DNA from: Gammaproteobacteria bacterium
Lineage (GTDB): Bacteria > Pseudomonadota > Gammaproteobacteria > Thiohalomonadales > Thiohalomonadaceae
NCBI GenBank assembly: GCA_024709225.1
Contig: JANJXC010000038.1
Location: 62,001-126,000 of the forward strand
Length of the DNA stretch: 64,000 bases
Direction: 5' to 3'
The notes beneath the pieces were generated by a model, which saw only the letters and a program-made list of their open reading frames with translations, had not been told where the DNA came from and searched no databases. The first letter of the stretch is position 1; each line of letters opens with the position of its first letter. Positions 13,482 to 26,936 of the stretch are shown here, in pieces. The translations under genes and the position numbers were made by a program.

Positions 13482-15707
13482 CTACTTCTCCGTGCGTTCG
13501 TAGACCCCATCCCATTCCGCCGCCGGCGGCGTTTGGCGCAAGGCGGCGATGCGCTCCAGATACAGGCCATATACCGTGACGTCCGGATGGCTGGCCTGCA
13601 GCTCCTGAAACAGCACCTCGGCATGATCCCAGCGCTGTGCGCGATAACTGGCTAGTGCTTCACTAAGTTGCTGTAGTTCAGCCAGCAGCTCCGCAGGGGC
13701 CTCGCCCGGGGTGCACAACGGCTGGAAGACACGGATGGCCTGTGCCTTGCCCTTGACCCGGATCAGGTCCAGTTCCCGGTAGATGAAGTCATGCTCGGCC
13801 AGGCGCTGCGTCCCCTCCCCCACGACCAGACCGACGTGGTAATACTTGGTGGTACCCTCCAGACGCGAGCCGAGATTTACGGTGTCACCGAGTACGGTAT
13901 AGGCGCGACGGTATTCCGAACCCATATCGCCCACATTCATGATGCCGCTGTTGATGCCGATGCCGATCTGAATCAGCGGGAAGCCGGCGGCCTGGAACTC
14001 CGGCCTGAGCCGTTCCACTTCGCGCAGCATCTCCAGCGCCGCAGCAATGGCATGAGTTGCATGCTGCTTGTCCTCCACCGGTGCGCCCCAGAACGCCATC
14101 ACCATGTCACCGACGTATTTGTCGATGGTGCCGCGATTGTCGAAGATGATGCGCGTCATGGGCGTAAAAAAATGATTCAACATCCGTTTCAGGTCGTTGG
14201 CGCTCAGCGCCTCGGAAATGGAGGTGAAGCTGCGGATATCGGCAAACAGTACGGTCATTTCGCGGCTTTCACCCTCGAATCCGTATTGATCGGGGTTTTC
14301 ACTCATTTCCTGCACCAGCTGCGGCGGTACATATTGACCGAACATGCCCTGCAACTGGCGCTTGCTGCGGAACTCGCCGAAAAAACCATAGGCCATGTTG
14401 AACGTGGCCAGCAGCACGACCAGGAGCACCTGAGTGGTCAGCGGCAGCACCACCCCCTCTCCGGCCCACAGCCAGAAATTGAAGACCACCGCGGCGCTCA
14501 ATACCGCCAGCGTCACCAGCACCAATGGCAACGGGGTCAGGCGGGGAAACAGCAGGGCCAGGCTCACGCCGATGAGCAGGGTGAGAACAAGGTCTGCACC
14601 GGCTGCCCAGGCCGGTTCCATGGGAAAGGTGTCATCGAGGATCGCGGTAATGATGTTGGCGTGCACCTCGACGCCGGGATACACCGCCTGCAGCGGCGTG
14701 GCGCGCAAATCGAACAAGCCCTGCGCGGTGGTGCCCACCAGGACAATGGCGTTGTCGAACGTGGCGTCGGCTGTCTGGTCGCGCAGCACGTCAGTGGCCG
14801 GTATGTAGCGGTAGCTGCCCCACGGGCCGTGATAGGGAATGATGATCCGGCCGGCGCTGTCGGTGGGTATGGCGCTCTGCCCCAGGAGAATGCCCTCGAG
14901 GATTTCCGTGTCACCAACCAGAGCCGTCTGCAACGTCACCTCTTCCATGTGCAGAAAGCGTCGCGCCACCTCCAGGCCAAGCGATGGATAGAGCTGATCG
15001 GCATGCCGCACGACCACCGGTGCGCGGCGGATGATGCCGTCCGGGTCGGGATCCAGGCTGAAGAAGCCGCCGTAGCGTGCGGCCTGTTGCAGTACCTCGA
15101 TATTGCCGGTGTAGCTGCTGGCCGTAGGCATGGCCAGGCGTGCTACTCGCCCTGTCGGTTCGATGCGCAGAGCTTGCGGCAGCGCACCCACCGCATCCTC
15201 GGCACGGGAGTGGAAGATATAGCCGAGTACCACGTTGCGCCCCGCCAGCTTGCCGGCAAAGGCGGCATTGTTGTCAAACAGTGGCAGGTAATCGCGTAGC
15301 TGTCGCGCCAGGGCCTGGAGCGCGTTATTGGACTCACCCAGGCGCTGCAGCACGGCCTCGCCGCTGTTACGTTCCGGCTCGGCGAACACGATGTCGAAGC
15401 CCACCACGGCGGCGCCCTGCGCAAACAGCTTGTCGACGAGCCGGCCGAGTTTGTCGCGTGACCAGGGCCAGTGCCCTTCGGTCTGCAGGCTCTTTTCATC
15501 AATATCGACGATGACGATGCGCGGATCGGCGTAGTGCTCCGGCAACATGGCGCGCAGGCGCAGATCATAGACCAGGGAGTCGAGGCGCTGCAGGGTCTGC
15601 TGCAGCAGCGGTACATCGCTGAACTGCAGCCAGAGCATGCCCAGGACCATCAGCAGTCCCGCGGCCGTGGGATAGAGTTTTTTGCGGAAGCGGCTGGCCC
15701 AGGCCAT
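13482..15707 (-). CDS. CHASE2 domain adenylate/guanylate cyclase
   Basis: CHASE2: RLRAMLPEHYADPRIVIVDIDEKSLQTEGHWPWSRDKLG; cyclase: MTVLFADIRSFTSISE...GDMVMAFWGAP...GINSGIMNVGDMGSEYRRAYTVLGDTVNLGSRLE. Confidence 0.92.
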   Translation of the reverse strand: MAWASRFRKKLYPTAAGLLMVLGMLWLQFSDVPLLQQTLQRLDSLVYDLRLRAMLPEHYADPRIVIVDIDEKSLQTEGHWPWSRDKLGRLVDKLFAQGAAVVGFDIVFAEPERNSGEAVLQRLGESNNALQALARQLRDYLPLFDNNAAFAGKLAGRNVVLGYIFHSRAEDAVGALPQALRIEPTGRVARLAMPTASSYTGNIEVLQQAARYGGFFSLDPDPDGIIRRAPVVVRHADQLYPSLGLEVARRFLHMEEVTLQTALVGDTEILEGILLGQSAIPTDSAGRIIIPYHGPWGSYRYIPATDVLRDQTADATFDNAIVLVGTTAQGLFDLRATPLQAVYPGVEVHANIITAILDDTFPMEPAWAAGADLVLTLLIGVSLALLFPRLTPLPLVLVTLAVLSAAVVFNFWLWAGEGVVLPLTTQVLLVVLLATFNMAYGFFGEFRSKRQLQGMFGQYVPPQLVQEMSENPDQYGFEGESREMTVLFADIRSFTSISEALSANDLKRMLNHFFTPMTRIIFDNRGTIDKYVGDMVMAFWGAPVEDKQHATHAIAAALEMLREVERLRPEFQAAGFPLIQIGIGINSGIMNVGDMGSEYRRAYTVLGDTVNLGSRLEGTTKYYHVGLVVGEGTQRLAEHDFIYRELDLIRVKGKAQAIRVFQPLCTPGEAPAELLAELQQLSEALASYRAQRWDHAEVLFQELQASHPDVTVYGLYLERIAALRQTPPAAEWDGVYERTEK

Positions 15708-19246: not shown

Positions 19247-19358
19247 GCCGGATCCTCATCATCTATGTTGCGGTTGGCAGCGGCGGTTTGCCGTGCTAGT
19301 TTTGCCAATACTGAGTATTCTACTCAACATCTGCAGCCAAACCAATCACAGGCCAGCC

Positions 19359-20402
19359 ATGCGCACCGATCTTCACACCCTCACCGCCCAGGTGCAACAC
19401 AACTGCGACATTTCCGATGCGCAGCATGCCCGTAACTATTCGCTGTGCATCTATCTGCTCAAGATGCGCGAATACTTTCGCTGGGAAATGGGCTATGGCT
19501 ATGACGAGCGCCTTCCGGAAAAACAGCTCGGCGACTGGCTGATAGAGCGGGAGCGACTATGGGGCGAACTGGAGGAGCAGGATTATCACCCCATCGAACT
19601 GCATGCCGCACAGTTTGCGCCCTTCGAGCCGGAGGCGCTGAATGATCGGCTGTTGCCCGATGGGCTGGTCTACAGCGGCGGCTACGGCGGTCTGTCCAAG
19701 CCCCACTTTTTCCTCGCCGCACTGCATCGGGTGGAGGAACGCCACGGCCGGCGCATCCTGGTCACCGGCAAGGAATACGCGCGGGACCTCACCGCCCCGC
19801 CGGCGATGACGCTGGGGGGCGAAGTTTACGTCAGGCGCGAATCGCTGCGCCGCATGCTGTGGGAAAAGATCGAGGAGTGGCGCTGGCGGCGGCGGGAGAA
19901 TGCGATGGCACGGGCCATTGCCTTCTACCCGGTGGACAGCGCCCTGGAAAGTGCGCTCGACAGCATGACGGCGACGGAAACCGAGGCGGTGATCCTGCAC
20001 GAACTGGGCGAGGCAGAGGCCGGTGTCCTGTTCGGGCCTGCCTGGGAGCAGATGCTGAATGCCCTGTGGCACACGCGGGCGGAGCTGGCGGCCCGGGCGG
20101 TGCGTGACCATTTGGCCGATTGTCTGGTGACCCTGCCAACCCTCCTGAAGGAGGAGCGTGTCGCCTCCCTGCACTTCTACTTCGCCAATCTGAGCGGTAT
20201 GCGCCAGGTTCTGTTCCCGGCGTTGCAGGAGGCCTATCGGCAGTGGCAGGAGGGAAGCGGTCTTGACGTACTACACGACTGTATCCGTCGCGGCCAGAGC
20301 CATTGGCAGGCAGCCGGCAGCCGCCTGTTGCGGGCCTATGGCGATGACGACAACGGTGCCGCGGAGCGGCTCGATGCACTGCTGGACCAAATCACCCTGT
20401 AA
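19359..20402 (+). CDS. Sfum_1244-like conserved protein associated with sulfur metabolism loci
   Basis: MRTDLHTLTAQVQHNCDISDAQHARNYSLCIYLLKMREYFRWEMGYGYDERLPEKQLGDWL; ATG at 19359. Confidence 0.65.
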   Translation: MRTDLHTLTAQVQHNCDISDAQHARNYSLCIYLLKMREYFRWEMGYGYDERLPEKQLGDWLIERERLWGELEEQDYHPIELHAAQFAPFEPEALNDRLLPDGLVYSGGYGGLSKPHFFLAALHRVEERHGRRILVTGKEYARDLTAPPAMTLGGEVYVRRESLRRMLWEKIEEWRWRRRENAMARAIAFYPVDSALESALDSMTATETEAVILHELGEAEAGVLFGPAWEQMLNALWHTRAELAARAVRDHLADCLVTLPTLLKEERVASLHFYFANLSGMRQVLFPALQEAYRQWQEGSGLDVLHDCIRRGQSHWQAAGSRLLRAYGDDDNGAAERLDALLDQITL

Positions 20403-20404
20403 AA

Positions 20405-20436
20405 ACGACGACGCCCGCAGCAGCGGGCGTCGTTGT
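20405..20436 (-). terminator. Intrinsic terminator for the leftward DsrC-like gene (possibly bidirectional)
   Basis: Perfect stem acgacgcccgc-agca-gcgggcgtcgt; followed by U-rich run in the leftward direction (aaaaa on + at 20401-20405). Confidence 0.7.
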
Positions 20437-20450
20437 GAGGCAGAAGCCGA

Positions 20451-20789
20451 TTAATAGCCGCCCTTGCGCCGCGTCTCCGGCAGGCCGGCGATCTTGGTGG
20501 CCTGCTTGGAGGGCTGCATGGGGAACAGCTCGTACAGGGCCTTGGCCTCGATCTTCTCGCCCCACTTGTCGGACATCGCCTTGACGATGTTGCGATCATT
20601 GGGCTGGTTGCCGCCGTTGTTCAGGTATTCGTCGCGCAGGTAGTTGATCAGGTCCCAGGACTTTTCGGTCAGGGTTACCTTCTCGACCTCGGCGATGGCC
20701 TTGGCCACATCCTCGTTCCAGTCTTCCAGATTTTCCAGATACCCGTTGGCGTTGGCCGCGATGGTCTTGCCGTTTACTTCGTAGGACAT
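20451..20789 (-). CDS. DsrC/TusE-family protein lacking all cysteines
   Basis: MSYEVNGKTIAANANGYLENLEDWNEDVAKAIAEVEKVTLTEKSWDLINYLRDEYL...YELFPMQPSKQATKIAGLPETRRKGGY: DsrC fold signature but no Cys. Confidence 0.9.
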   Translation of the reverse strand: MSYEVNGKTIAANANGYLENLEDWNEDVAKAIAEVEKVTLTEKSWDLINYLRDEYLNNGGNQPNDRNIVKAMSDKWGEKIEAKALYELFPMQPSKQATKIAGLPETRRKGGY

Positions 20790-20834: not shown

Positions 20835-21512
20835 TTATTCCGAATTAACTTTATTGATAGATTTGTGAGCAATAAACAGCCCGCAGCCGAGGCTGCGATG
20901 CGGTCCCAGCCCCCGCTCCTGCAAGGTCACGGCATCGGGTGGGGACAGGTCCGCCACCATTAGGCTGCGCACATGGATCGGGCCGTCGGGGGTGTCGAAA
21001 TAGTGCGGCTTACCCGCCAGCACCTTCTTGAACTGCACCCCCATGGCGCGCATCTGCTGCACGGCATCGGCAATGAACTGCTCCTCGTCCTGCCCGGCAG
21101 GCACCGCAATGTAGCGCGCGTACAGCGTAGCGACCGGGCTGAGGGGAACCAGCTTTGCCTCGCCTACCACCAGGGTGTTGCCGGCGATGTCGAGGGTCTG
21201 GCCGCTCAGGGCACGTGCATTTTCCACTCTATCCCGGGCCAGACGCAAGACAAGACGCGTACGTCGTGACAGGTGCAACAGCGCGAAGGCATGGGAGGGC
21301 CGCTCCCAGCCATTGCCGGAGTCGGCCACGTGGATCAGGTGCAGGCCGTCGCTGGGCTCGTCGCCGAACCAGGGCAGCACGCCGCGAATGGCGGTGGACA
21401 GGGCGTAGGCATGATCCACCGGCAGGGTGCGGCAGTCGATGTGAAACGACACATCGACCACCGCCTCCGGTACGGTGAAGAATTCCTTTTGTACGTCCTC
21501 TTGCCAAAACAT
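20835..21512 (-). CDS. Cas6/Cmx6-like (type I-MYXAN CRISPR-associated Cas6) protein
   Basis: VDVSFHIDCRTLPVDHAYALSTAIRGVLPWFGDEPSDGLHLIHV...ATLYARYIAV...C-terminal G-loop GLGPHRSLGCGLF (GhGxxxxxGhG). Confidence 0.6.
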   Translation of the reverse strand: MFWQEDVQKEFFTVPEAVVDVSFHIDCRTLPVDHAYALSTAIRGVLPWFGDEPSDGLHLIHVADSGNGWERPSHAFALLHLSRRTRLVLRLARDRVENARALSGQTLDIAGNTLVVGEAKLVPLSPVATLYARYIAVPAGQDEEQFIADAVQQMRAMGVQFKKVLAGKPHYFDTPDGPIHVRSLMVADLSPPDAVTLQERGLGPHRSLGCGLFIAHKSINKVNSE

Positions 21513-21516
21513 GGTT

Positions 21517-22233
21517 TCAGTCCGCCGGCAGCTCGTTGCGCAGGGCGTCGCGATCGTACCACCAGGCATCGGGTACCAGTACATCCAGCAGCTTGCCGAG
21601 GCGCGGCAGGAACTTGGCCGGGTCGTTCAGCTCCAAGCGCTCCACCCAGAAATCGAAGATGTCCTTGTTATCCACCACCTCGCTGTGCTTCTTGGCCACC
21701 TCGGCCAGCATGCCGGCGGTAAAGAACTTCAGGTCCTCGCGCTGTTTGCCGGTGGCACGCAGTTCCACCAGGTAGGCGGCCGTCGCCGCGGGTATGGCGG
21801 CGGCGTCGGCCTTGGGCGGGGTCTCCTCCACCAGGTGCTTGAGCATCAGTACCGACAGCTCCGGGTCGATGGGATAGGTCACCGCCAGCCAGATGCCATG
21901 GGCCAGGGCCTTGATGCCATCATCCCGCTCGGACTGATAGATGATGTCGCAGGCCTGCACCGCCTGTTCCCACAGGCGCGCGCCCAGCGCCTGGCCGAAG
22001 CAGTCATGACCCAGCTGCCAGGCGTCGTCGCGCCGCTCCAGGTCGAGCAGGATATAGCCGATATCGTTGCGCAGGGTCAGCCGCTGTGCCAGCGGGGCAG
22101 CGGCTGGCAATGCGGCCAGCTCGGCCTCCAATTGTGCCAGACGGGCCTCCTCCGCCTGCTTCGGACGGAGGGCGTCGGAGGCGCATTCGGCCTCGCCTTG
22201 CACGGCTTCGTTTTCCAGTTGCAGATATTTCAC
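21517..22233 (-). CDS. Conserved hypothetical protein (helical, dsr-adjacent)
   Basis: ORF of 238 aa; stop lies 4 bp from the start of the Cas6-like gene, suggesting operon. Confidence 0.7.
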   Translation of the reverse strand: MKYLQLENEAVQGEAECASDALRPKQAEEARLAQLEAELAALPAAAPLAQRLTLRNDIGYILLDLERRDDAWQLGHDCFGQALGARLWEQAVQACDIIYQSERDDGIKALAHGIWLAVTYPIDPELSVLMLKHLVEETPPKADAAAIPAATAAYLVELRATGKQREDLKFFTAGMLAEVAKKHSEVVDNKDIFDFWVERLELNDPAKFLPRLGKLLDVLVPDAWWYDRDALRNELPAD

Positions 22234-22264: not shown

Positions 22265-22444
22265 TCAGGAGGTAAAGGCGGCTTCCAGCCGATCTTCCCA
22301 GTTTTCCGGGGTGTTTTCGTAGGTGGGCTTGACGTCGATGCGGAAAAACATCTCCCCCTTGGCGCGCTGGCGAACCACCTCGATGAGGTCTTCGAAGTCG
22401 TCCAGCTGGGGGTTCTGGATCATGATCTCGCTCAGATAAAGCAT
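22265..22444 (-). CDS. Small conserved hypothetical protein (59 aa)
   Basis: MLYLSEIMIQNPQLDDFEDLIEVVRQRAKGEMFFRIDVKPTYENTPENWEDRLEAAFTS; first gene of leftward block. Confidence 0.6.
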   Translation of the reverse strand: MLYLSEIMIQNPQLDDFEDLIEVVRQRAKGEMFFRIDVKPTYENTPENWEDRLEAAFTS

Positions 22445-22489: not shown

Positions 22490-22965
22490 GTGTGGCACCT
22501 ACCGCGGTCCTTCAAGGGCCGGATAGTTAAGAGAATCGCTATGTAATGATATTGAACCCCATGCCGGGCACGTGGACAAGCCTGATTTTGTCCTGACACT
22601 CGCACCATGACGGCGCCCGCAACGTTTCCTTATAACTTATATACAACATTAGAAAGAAACCGCATCCAATTGATTATTATCAGTTAATAGCTTAACTTAT
22701 ACCACTATAACCCATACTGCGAAGGCGTTTTGTATATCCCATTCAGGATAGGCATCCCCCACCCCTCCCCCCCATCGGAAGGATACTTCGCTTCATTATG
22801 AACTTCTAAACTTCGCGCCATGTTGGAAAGGACCATCCGGTTTCGTCCTCTTCAGACAGGTAGTTGTGCCCGGTGCCGCCACACGTCGCCGGGCCAGATG
22901 GACGGCCAAGGTACCCTCCTCCGGCCGCCCCGAAACCCCACAGATCTCTGACGGGAGAATGACTA

Positions 22966-24222
22966 ATGGCTACTAAGATGCATAAAACCCCGATGCTGGA
23001 CCAGCTGGAGAGCGGCCCGTGGCCGTCCTTCGTGACCGGCCTGAAGCGCCTGGCTACCGATGAAGGCAAGCCTTACGCCGACATGATGAAGGACCTGCTC
23101 GGTCAGCTGGAAACTTCCTACACCACCCGCAAGGGCTACTGGAAGGGTGGTACCGTAGGTGTGGTCGGTTACGGCGGCGGCGTCATTCCCCGCTTCACCG
23201 AGCTGCACGACGAGAACAAGAAGCCCCTGTTCCCGAAGGCTGCCGAGTTCCATACCCTGCGTATCATGCCGCCGGCCGGCATGCACTACACCACCGACAT
23301 CATGCGCAAGTTCTGCGACGTGTGGGACAAGTACGGCTCCGGCCTGATTGCCTTCCACGGCCAGTCCGGCGACATCATGTTCCAGGGCTGCACCACCGAC
23401 AACGTCCAGCCGGCCTTCGACGAGCTGAACGAGATGGGCTTTGACCTGGGTGGCGCCGGCCCCGCCGTACGCACCGGTATGTCCTGCGTCGGTGCTGCGC
23501 GTTGCGAGCACTCCTGCGCCAACGAGCAGAAGATTCACCGTACCCTGGTGAACCGCTTCCTCGACGACATGCACCGTCCGGCCCTGCCGTACAAGTTCAA
23601 GTTCAAGGTCTCCGGCTGCCCCAACGACTGCATGAACTCCATCCAGCGCGCTGACCTGGCCACCATCGGCACCTGGCGCGACGACATGAAGGTCGACCAG
23701 GCCGAAGTGAAGAACTTCGTCAATGCCAAGGGCCGCAAGTACGTCATCGACAACGTCATCACCCGTTGCCCGACCCAGGCCCTGAGCCTGAACGACGACG
23801 ACACCCTGGCCGTGGACAACAAGAACTGCGTCCGCTGCATGCACTGCATCAACGTCATGACCAAGGCTCTGTCCCCCGGCGATGACAAGGGCGTTACCCT
23901 GCTGGTTGGCGGCAAGCGCACTCTGAAGATCGGCGATCTGATGGGCACCGTGGTGGTTCCCTTCATGAAGCTGGACACCGACGAGGACTACGAGGCCCTG
24001 GAAGAACTGGCCGGCAACATGATCGACTTCTTCGCCGAGAACGCTCTGGAGCACGAGCGTACCGGTGAGATGATCGAGCGTATCGGCCTGGTGAACTTCC
24101 TGGAAGGCATCGGTCTGGAGATCGATCCCAACATGATCACCAACCCGCGCATGAACCCCTATGTCCGCACCGATGGCTGGGACGAAGAGGCCCAGAAGTG
24201 GTTCGAGCGTAAGGCTGGCTAA
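22966..24222 (+). CDS. dsrA: Dissimilatory sulfite reductase alpha subunit (reverse type)
   Basis: Siroheme/4Fe-4S Cys motifs (GMSCVGAARCEHSC, KVSGCPNDCMNS) plus ferredoxin domain NCVRCMHCINVM. Confidence 0.98.
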   Translation: MATKMHKTPMLDQLESGPWPSFVTGLKRLATDEGKPYADMMKDLLGQLETSYTTRKGYWKGGTVGVVGYGGGVIPRFTELHDENKKPLFPKAAEFHTLRIMPPAGMHYTTDIMRKFCDVWDKYGSGLIAFHGQSGDIMFQGCTTDNVQPAFDELNEMGFDLGGAGPAVRTGMSCVGAARCEHSCANEQKIHRTLVNRFLDDMHRPALPYKFKFKVSGCPNDCMNSIQRADLATIGTWRDDMKVDQAEVKNFVNAKGRKYVIDNVITRCPTQALSLNDDDTLAVDNKNCVRCMHCINVMTKALSPGDDKGVTLLVGGKRTLKIGDLMGTVVVPFMKLDTDEDYEALEELAGNMIDFFAENALEHERTGEMIERIGLVNFLEGIGLEIDPNMITNPRMNPYVRTDGWDEEAQKWFERKAG

Positions 24223-24318
24223 GCGGTCGGTCCAACGGCAATCGCGGGGCGTTCCGGGCAACCGGCACGCCCCGCAAACTAAATAACGACGAATTTCTGA
24301 GTGTAATTGGAGGTAATT

Positions 24319-25389
24319 ATGTCTGCACCTCGCATGCCCATCGAGAGTGGTGTACCGGATCCGTTCCCGTATATGCACCCCACGCTGAAGAAGAACTTCG
24401 GCCAGTGGAAGTATCATGACCGTCCGCGCCCGGGCGTCCTGCACCACGTCGCCAAGAGCGGCGAAGAAGTCTGGACCGTGCGTGCCGGTACCCAGCGTCA
24501 GATGGACACCTACACCATCCGCAAGCTGATGGACATCGCCGACCAGTTCGCTGACGGCTATGTGCGCTTCACCATTCGTTCCAACATCGAGTACATGGTC
24601 ACCGACCAGAAGAAGGTCCAGCCGCTGATCGACAAGCTGCAGGCCGAAGGCTTCCCCGTCGGCGGTACCGGTAACTCCGTGTCCATGATCTCCCACACCC
24701 AGGGTTGGCTGCACTGCGACATCCCCGGCACCGACGCTTCCGGCGCCGTGAAGGCCCTGATGGATGAGCTGTACCACGAGTTCACCCACGAAGAGATGCC
24801 GAACCGTGTGCGTATGACCACCTCCTGCTGCCAGATCAACTGCGGCGGCCAGGGTGACATCGCCATCAACATCCAGCACACCAAGCCGCCCAAGATCAAC
24901 CACGATCTGGTCGCCAACGTGTGTGAGCGCCCGTCCGTTGTGGCCCGTTGCCCGGTTGCGGCCATCCGCCCGGCCATGGTCAACGGCAAGCCCTCGCTGG
25001 AAGTCGACGAGAAGAAGTGCATCTGCTGCGGCGCCTGCTTCCCGCCCTGCCCGCCGATGCAGATCAACGATCCGGAGCACTCCAAGCTGGCCATCTGGGT
25101 TGGCGGCAAGAACTCCAACGCCCGTTCCAAGCCGACCTTCCACAAGCTGGTCGCCGCTGGTATCCCGAACAACCCGCCGCGCTGGCCCGAAGCCGCCGCT
25201 GTGGTGAAGAACATCCTGGGTGCCTACAAGAAGGATGCCAAGGACTACGAGCGTATGAACGAGTGGATCGACCGTATCGGTTGGCCGCGCTTCTTCGAGC
25301 TGACCGGCCTGCCGTTCACCAAGTACCACATCGACAACTGGCGTGGTGGCCGCGTGAACCTCAACGCCTCTGCTCACATCCGCTTCTAA
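24319..25389 (+). CDS. dsrB: Dissimilatory sulfite reductase beta subunit
   Basis: RMTTSCCQINCGGQGDIAINIQ, KKCICCGACFPPCPPMQI; ATG at 24319. Confidence 0.98.
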   Translation: MSAPRMPIESGVPDPFPYMHPTLKKNFGQWKYHDRPRPGVLHHVAKSGEEVWTVRAGTQRQMDTYTIRKLMDIADQFADGYVRFTIRSNIEYMVTDQKKVQPLIDKLQAEGFPVGGTGNSVSMISHTQGWLHCDIPGTDASGAVKALMDELYHEFTHEEMPNRVRMTTSCCQINCGGQGDIAINIQHTKPPKINHDLVANVCERPSVVARCPVAAIRPAMVNGKPSLEVDEKKCICCGACFPPCPPMQINDPEHSKLAIWVGGKNSNARSKPTFHKLVAAGIPNNPPRWPEAAAVVKNILGAYKKDAKDYERMNEWIDRIGWPRFFELTGLPFTKYHIDNWRGGRVNLNASAHIRF

Positions 25390-26565: not shown

Positions 26566-26901
26566 ATGGGTACTATGACTGCTGGTGGTAAGACTGTAGA
26601 AGTCGATGAGGAAGGTTACCTGGTCAACATCAACGACTGGAACCGCGATATCGCTGTGGAGCTGGCCAAGTCCGAGAACGTCGAGATGACCGACTCCCAC
26701 TGGGAAGTGATCGACTTCCTGCGCGAGTACTACAACGAGTACCAGATCGCTCCGGCCGTTCGCGTTCTGACCAAGGCCATCGGCAAGAAGCTTGGCCCTG
26801 AGAAGGGCAACAGCAAGTACCTGTACGAGCTGTTCCCGTACGGTCCCGCCAAGCAGGCCTGTAAGATCGGTGGCCTGCCGAAGCCGACCGGCTGCATCTA
26901 A
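26566..26901 (+). CDS. dsrC: DsrC
   Basis: C-terminal arm YGPAKQACKIGGLPKPTGCI with both conserved cysteines. Confidence 0.97.
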   Translation: MGTMTAGGKTVEVDEEGYLVNINDWNRDIAVELAKSENVEMTDSHWEVIDFLREYYNEYQIAPAVRVLTKAIGKKLGPEKGNSKYLYELFPYGPAKQACKIGGLPKPTGCI

Positions 26902-26910
26902 AGCTGCGCC

Positions 26911-26936
26911 TGGGGGGCGCTCGCGCCCCCCACCCT
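26911..26936 (+). terminator. Intrinsic terminator after dsrC
   Basis: tggggggcgctcgcgccccccaccctttttc: GC-rich hairpin plus T5. Confidence 0.75.

Follow-up and report, generated by a model that had tools for sequence, protein, structure and literature searches.

The window, by which we mean the whole 64-kb stretch of DNA that was analysed, carries a Cas6-like gene within a leftward operon, and the dsr genes lie beside this operon in the divergent orientation. In the window the operon consists of a small ORF, a gene for a 238-aa protein, the Cas6-like gene and a DsrC-like gene, followed by a terminator-like hairpin. An earlier note had described a leftward unit of the Cas6-like gene with a DsrC-like gene next to dsr; both the DsrC-like neighbour and the divergent dsrAB genes are found as described. 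The comparison set comprised 63 loci: 60 that were fetched, the window itself, and two with names, one of them labelled Thiohalomonas denitrificans. The features of the window that are needed for the analysis are as follows.

20408-20433, reverse strand: intrinsic-terminator-like hairpin at the end of the leftward unit (a consensus match only)
20451-20789, reverse strand: cysteine-less DsrC-like protein, 112 aa, with the C-terminus ...GLPETRRKGGY as against ...GLPKPTGCI in DsrC
20835-21512, reverse strand: Cas6-like gene (PF09559 / TIGR02807), 225 aa, His34 and glycine loop intact
21517-22233, reverse strand: 238-aa protein, 4 bases upstream of the Cas6-like gene, with homologues in 29 of 63 loci
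22265-22444, reverse strand: small ORF, 59 aa, MLYLSEIMIQ...DVKPTYENTPENWEDRLEAAFTS (also given as ...NTPENWEDRLEAAFTS), with homologues in the corresponding position in 50 of 63 loci
22734-22751, no strand: conserved palindrome ATATCCCATTCAGGATAG in the divergent dsr promoter region, resembling a DNA operator
22804-22813, forward strand: conserved -10-like element TTCTAAACTT (many relatives have CCTAGACTT), some 150 nt ahead of the dsrA start
22966-24222, forward strand: dsrA, the divergent neighbour of the Cas6-like unit
24244-24275, forward strand: dsrA-dsrB intercistronic RNA hairpin, a candidate substrate (GCGGGGCGTTCCGGGCAACCGGCACGCCCCGC)
24319-25389, forward strand: dsrB

A gene for a DUF6866 two-domain protein (19335-20402, forward strand) is convergent to the Cas6-like operon and has homologues in 19 of the 63 loci. 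Between dsrC and dsrM there is another terminator-like hairpin with a T5 tail (26911-26932, forward strand), which possibly sets dsrC high relative to the downstream genes. No Rfam families were found between positions 15000 and 40000 of the window.

The Cas6-like ORF is uninterrupted and starts at 21512 with the residues MFWQEDV. An alternative in-frame ATG at 21584 would give a longer product, but the family shares a conserved MxWxE N-terminus, with W3 present in 63 of 63 proteins, which makes this upstream start unlikely. The protein matches the Pfam profile PF09559 ('Cas6') with E=1.6e-60, the PADLOC Cas6 models at 1e-57 and the NCBIfam model TIGR02807 ('type I-MYXAN Cas6/Cmx6') with 122 bits against a cut-off of 98.85. 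These full-domain matches, above the curated cut-off, place the window protein in the Cas6 family. Among solved structures, a single-sequence search gave one clear relative, chain B of 8fcj (a type I-B Cas6), at 4e-13; with a profile of 21 sequences the match extends over positions 15-216 at E=9e-23. The earlier note had identified the protein as a Cas6/Cmx6-like endoribonuclease from its LPVDHAYAL...VLPW pattern and a C-terminal glycine loop (GLGPHRSLGCGLF). Both motifs are present, and the family identity agrees with all of these matches. A RAMP fold (tandem RRM/ferredoxin) is predicted from homology to the solved Cas6; the AlphaFold model from a 3-sequence alignment reached a pLDDT of only 38 and was set aside.

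We aligned the 63 dsr-linked proteins with nine further Cas6 proteins, the majority CRISPR-associated. Every one of the 63 has His34 of the LPVDHAY motif, as do all seven plasmid Cas6 proteins that reach this position, whereas 8fcj has Asn there. Judged by its position, His34 is the candidate catalytic histidine. The glycine loop (GhGxxxxxGhG) is likewise kept, with G201, G203, G209 and G211 present in 61-63 of the 63 proteins. The dsr group has additional features of its own: W3, G68-W69 (within an inserted SGNGW motif) and G167 are invariant, position 163 is Lys in 58 proteins and Arg in five, and the C-terminal tail reads PHKG.

The closest known counterparts are the type I-MYXAN Cas6/Cmx6 proteins of cyanobacterial plasmid CRISPR systems, which belong to the same family as the window protein and share 20-29% identity with it. 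They have in common the DH motif at the candidate catalytic histidine and the glycine loop. However, no cas3, cas8, cas7 or cas5 gene and no array adjoin the window gene, and the dsr-linked proteins differ in the N-terminal MxWxE, the SGNGW insertion, K163/G167, the PHKG tail and dsr synteny. The type I-B Cas6 of 8fcj, although the nearest solved structure over the full length, differs not only at the His34 position but also in that it works within a CRISPR complex. The plasmids from which the comparison proteins were taken carry cas3, cas8/cmx8, cas7 or cas5 beside cas6. The exception is plasmid pGMOR1 of Gloeobacter morelensis, whose Cas6/Cmx6 gene (locus L115, 4974-5765) has no other annotated cas genes within 5 kb and sits among unknown genes and one for a PAPS-reductase-family protein; it is possibly another CRISPR-free Cas6.

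In a maximum-likelihood tree all 63 dsr-linked proteins fall into one group apart from the CRISPR-linked Cas6 proteins (support 100/99), which, as the tree is midpoint-rooted, represents a split rather than a proven clade. Distances between the Cas6-like proteins correlate with those between the DsrA proteins (r=0.42, exceeding all 999 permutations). Most estimates of dN/dS among close relatives are near 0.1 (range 0.07-0.22), and the gene is under purifying selection. No viral carriers were confirmed in IMG/VR.

As the earlier note had stated, there is no repeat-spacer array in the 64-kb window; the only repeats found are two-copy and 77-82% identical. PF09559 is present in a single copy in the organism's own genome. 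The same note had held that a type I-MYXAN locus elsewhere in this genome, served by the protein, would speak against a repurposed role. Such a locus was not found: searches for Cas1 and for DevR/Cas7 gave nothing, and the search for Cas3 gave only helicase-type matches below the cut-off. With no array in the window, no Cas1 or DevR and no Cas3 above the cut-off in the genome, the parts of a type I-MYXAN system that were looked for are absent. DevR/Cas7 is the effector of I-MYXAN and I-B systems. It was found in none of 369 Gammaproteobacteria genomes, so that the class sample yielded no I-MYXAN system which the Cas6-like proteins could serve.

The Cas6-like gene itself is widespread in the class. 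It occurs in 118 of the 369 genomes, spanning 86 of 271 genera, with one match each apart from a single case in which the gene is split on a contig. In the organism's own order the gene was seen as a single copy in 17 of 20 genomes. A phylum-wide draw of 229 genomes contained only two carriers, both of them Gammaproteobacteria. DsrA (at E<1e-30) and Cas1 were searched in the same 369 genomes. Both the Cas6-like gene and DsrA are present in 111 genomes, the Cas6-like gene alone in 7, DsrA alone in 8 and neither in 243 (Fisher p=7e-75; since each genome was counted as independent, kinship inflates this value). Better grounds for the tie to dsr than the p-value are the spread across genera and the co-losses. 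Co-losses are seen in G287 (same genus as G020), G301 (family f33) and G152 (family f134), all of which lack both the Cas6-like gene and DsrA while their kin have both. Five of the seven genomes with the Cas6-like gene alone (G112, G204, G316, G334 and G335) have concordant genomes in their own genus or family, so the dsr contig is likely to be missing from several of these five. Cas1 shows no association with the Cas6-like gene, whether any match (OR 1.44, p=0.13) or only strong matches (OR 1.11, p=0.78) are counted. Small genomes of 1.0-1.1 Mb (families f40 and f142) keep the Cas6-like gene and have no Cas1 match. The comparison of dsr with CRISPR that the earlier note had proposed thus comes out in favour of dsrA.

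Gene order points in the same direction. Wherever a locus contains both genes (52 of 52), the Cas6-like gene and dsrA are transcribed divergently. At its most complete, and starting from the dsrA side, the operon runs: a TauD-like dioxygenase (PF02668), an ORF of about 60 aa, the 238-aa protein, the Cas6-like gene and the DsrC-like gene. Among the 63 loci the TauD-like gene was found in 42, the small ORF in 50, the 238-aa protein in 29 and a same-strand downstream DsrC-like gene in 48; the window lacks the TauD-like gene. The Cas6-like gene is retained even at a distance from dsrA, as in two genomes of family f110 (42 kb in G128 and 518 kb in G342). By co-occurrence and linkage with dsrAB, the Cas6-like gene is a member of the dsr gene set. 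Of its operon partners, the 238-aa protein matched nothing in Pfam, NCBIfam or PADLOC, nor did the small ORF in a Pfam search with two relatives or in a PADLOC search with the window copy. The conserved gap of about 200 nt between the TauD-like gene and cas6 had been a candidate noncoding RNA; this was ruled out, as the gap corresponds to the small ORF. The downstream partner belongs to the DsrC/TusE family, yet in the window it lacks both C-terminal cysteines of true DsrC (compared with the dsrC gene at 26566-26901), and all 48 same-strand downstream partners end in KGGY.

The region between the two divergent units has a recurrent layout. In about 43 of 51 loci (22734-22813 in the window) the palindrome ATATCCC-N4-GGGATAT is followed some 18 nt on by the block CACCCCATnGGTAGG and then, at near-fixed spacing, by the -10-like element CCTAGACTTC. 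These blocks resemble activator sites in tandem for some dsr regulator. The palindrome, which has the look of a CRISPR-repeat hairpin, was rejected as an RNA target of Cas6 because its near-fixed distance upstream of the conserved -10-like element puts it outside the dsrA transcript. Its single mismatches, counted by eye, are A-C as frequently as G-U, which is the symmetry expected for a DNA operator. A structured 5' leader of dsrA is a weak candidate as well (mean z -0.9, with 3 of 23 leaders below -1.5).

A more suitable element lies between dsrA and dsrB. The gap between these genes is mostly 45-110 nt and contains a strong hairpin in most linked operons. In the window the whole gap has z=-3.35, no T-run follows the hairpin, and the outer stem pattern occurs only once in the genome. 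The hairpin is present in 34 of 50 cas6-linked operons as against 2 of 18 control operons that do not adjoin the Cas6-like gene (p=5e-5), a contrast confounded by phylogeny, as the controls, taken as second copies or from genomes without the gene, are mostly second dsr copies. The sequence of the hairpin is not conserved across genera and varies freely between families while the pairing is kept, with at least four standard pair types at each of nine stem positions; CRISPR repeats likewise diverge fast. The arms of a hairpin pair with each other at 95%, compared with 44% for arms swapped between loci, a difference biased upward since the hairpins were picked for stability (the shuffle z-scores were not so picked).

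Genomes with two dsr copies provide a more direct comparison. The informative ones, G174, G074 and G366, have the hairpin in the linked copy and not in the second one, whereas G328 has it in both and G165 in neither. More generally, second dsrA copies away from the Cas6-like operon were seen in G328, G101, G174, G165, G074, G351, G236, G212, G214, G366 and G336 (loci L127-L138). These usually lack the dsrA-dsrB hairpin; the second copy at L127 has it. The hairpin is also absent from 16 of the 50 linked operons, including two genomes of about 1 Mb (L079 and L081) that keep the Cas6-like protein, and therefore it cannot be the sole target of this protein. On present correlative support, it is the best candidate site.

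Taken together, the co-occurrence with dsrA rather than cas1, the divergent synteny, the separate group, the retained His34 and the purifying selection make us highly confident that this is a dsr-dedicated, exapted Cas6 and a standard member of the reverse-dsr gene set in sulfur-oxidising Gammaproteobacteria. The earlier note had suggested a repurposed role in sulfur metabolism, for example on dsr mRNA. Its first part, a Cas6 outside CRISPR and tied to dsr, stands on the same evidence, and as regards the second we infer, with a slight leaning in its favour, that the protein acts on dsr RNA by binding or cleaving dsr mRNA. In mechanistic terms, a Cas6-family protein would have left CRISPR and joined the reverse-dissimilatory-sulfite-reductase (dsr) gene set. 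Like other Cas6 proteins, it would recognise RNA stem-loops, and what it binds or cleaves would be a structured part of the polycistronic dsr transcript, most likely the dsrA-dsrB hairpin. Several Cas6 enzymes are single-turnover and stay bound to their product. Binding or cleavage would then set the stability or expression of the dsr segments, and the cysteine-less DsrC-like protein would couple this action to the status of the sulfur relay. That the protein cuts the dsrA-dsrB hairpin is a tentative proposal, which we rate well below even. So is the complete scheme, in which an ancestor of the sulfur-oxidising Gammaproteobacteria would have captured from CRISPR a Cas6 that may now cut dsr mRNA at this hairpin and, together with a cysteine-less DsrC-like sensor, tune a central energy pathway.

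It might be argued that RNase E or RNase III handles the hairpin as an ordinary element of mRNA stability, and that the Cas6-like protein targets a small RNA, its own operon or another site in the dsr transcript. Hairpins between cistrons occur commonly in bacterial operons, and the 16 linked operons without one fit this explanation; however, the hairpin is largely restricted to cas6-linked operons (34/50 versus 2/18). We give this alternative a considerable chance, somewhat short of even. The protein could instead bind RNA or act as a scaffold without cutting, in a regulatory complex for dsr that also includes the cysteine-less DsrC-like, small and 238-aa proteins. The conservation of these operon partners, as well as the dsr-specific invariants outside the Cas6 core (W3, G68-W69, K163, G167 and the PHKG C-terminus), which suggest protein contacts, speak for such a complex. 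Yet the candidate catalytic histidine, present in 63 of 63 proteins, is kept more strictly than expected if cleavage were dispensable, and we consider a purely non-cutting role unlikely. Less probable still is that the protein and its DsrC/TusE-like partner bind tRNA anticodon arms or balance the flow of sulfur to tRNA thiolation. The proteins TusBCD and TusE are akin to DsrEFH and DsrC, and the partner is of the DsrC/TusE family, but it is without the conserved C-terminal cysteines needed for sulfur relay, the linkage is to dsrAB, and the window contains no tRNA genes. Finally, an orphan Cas6 that processes crRNA in trans for other CRISPR types of its carriers is very improbable: although NCBIfam, Pfam and PADLOC all call the protein Cas6 and 25 of the 118 carriers have a strong Cas1 match, Cas1 is unassociated (p 0.13-0.78), the window's own genome lacks Cas1, DevR and above-cut-off Cas3, the I-MYXAN Cas7 is found in 0/369 genomes, and the neighbourhoods read are those of dsr.

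Returning to the Cas6-like gene as a dedicated part of the dsr gene set, other accessory members of this set are DsrR and DsrS of the Allochromatium vinosum dsr cluster. They have a role in dsr expression and to our knowledge are not Cas6 homologues; they also differ from the Cas6-like gene in being located inside the dsr operon itself. DsrS has been described as non-essential for sulfur oxidation (PMC5944118), and for A. vinosum there is a report of DsrC binding to DNA upstream of dsr (PMC5944118). A search of the open PMC papers found none that connects Cas6/Cmx6 to dsr; an earlier notice in subscription papers is possible. In a 2024 study of the evolution of rDsr, cas6 and CRISPR do not come up in the main text (PMC11406059). 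The family itself is an established one, but its regular membership in the dsr gene set seems not to have been reported before.

Homologues are present in about a third of the sampled Gammaproteobacteria genomes (118/369). The name 'type I-MYXAN CRISPR-associated Cas6' is misleading for both CRISPR surveys and sulfur-cycle annotation, since the window copy passes the NCBIfam cut-off and yet the class sample gave no I-MYXAN effector. The analysis also exposes an overlooked operon, with the TauD-like, small, 238-aa and cysteine-less DsrC-like proteins, and a specific RNA hairpin. The oxidation of sulfur by purple sulfur bacteria, and by many further sulfur oxidisers, is driven by the rDsr pathway. 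If the proposed function is true, the protein would offer a missing regulator for this pathway and would clearly exemplify how a CRISPR enzyme of RNA processing can be exapted into core energy metabolism. Should the hairpin indeed be what it cuts, a Cas protein would have become a permanent regulator of core metabolism that works by processing mRNA.
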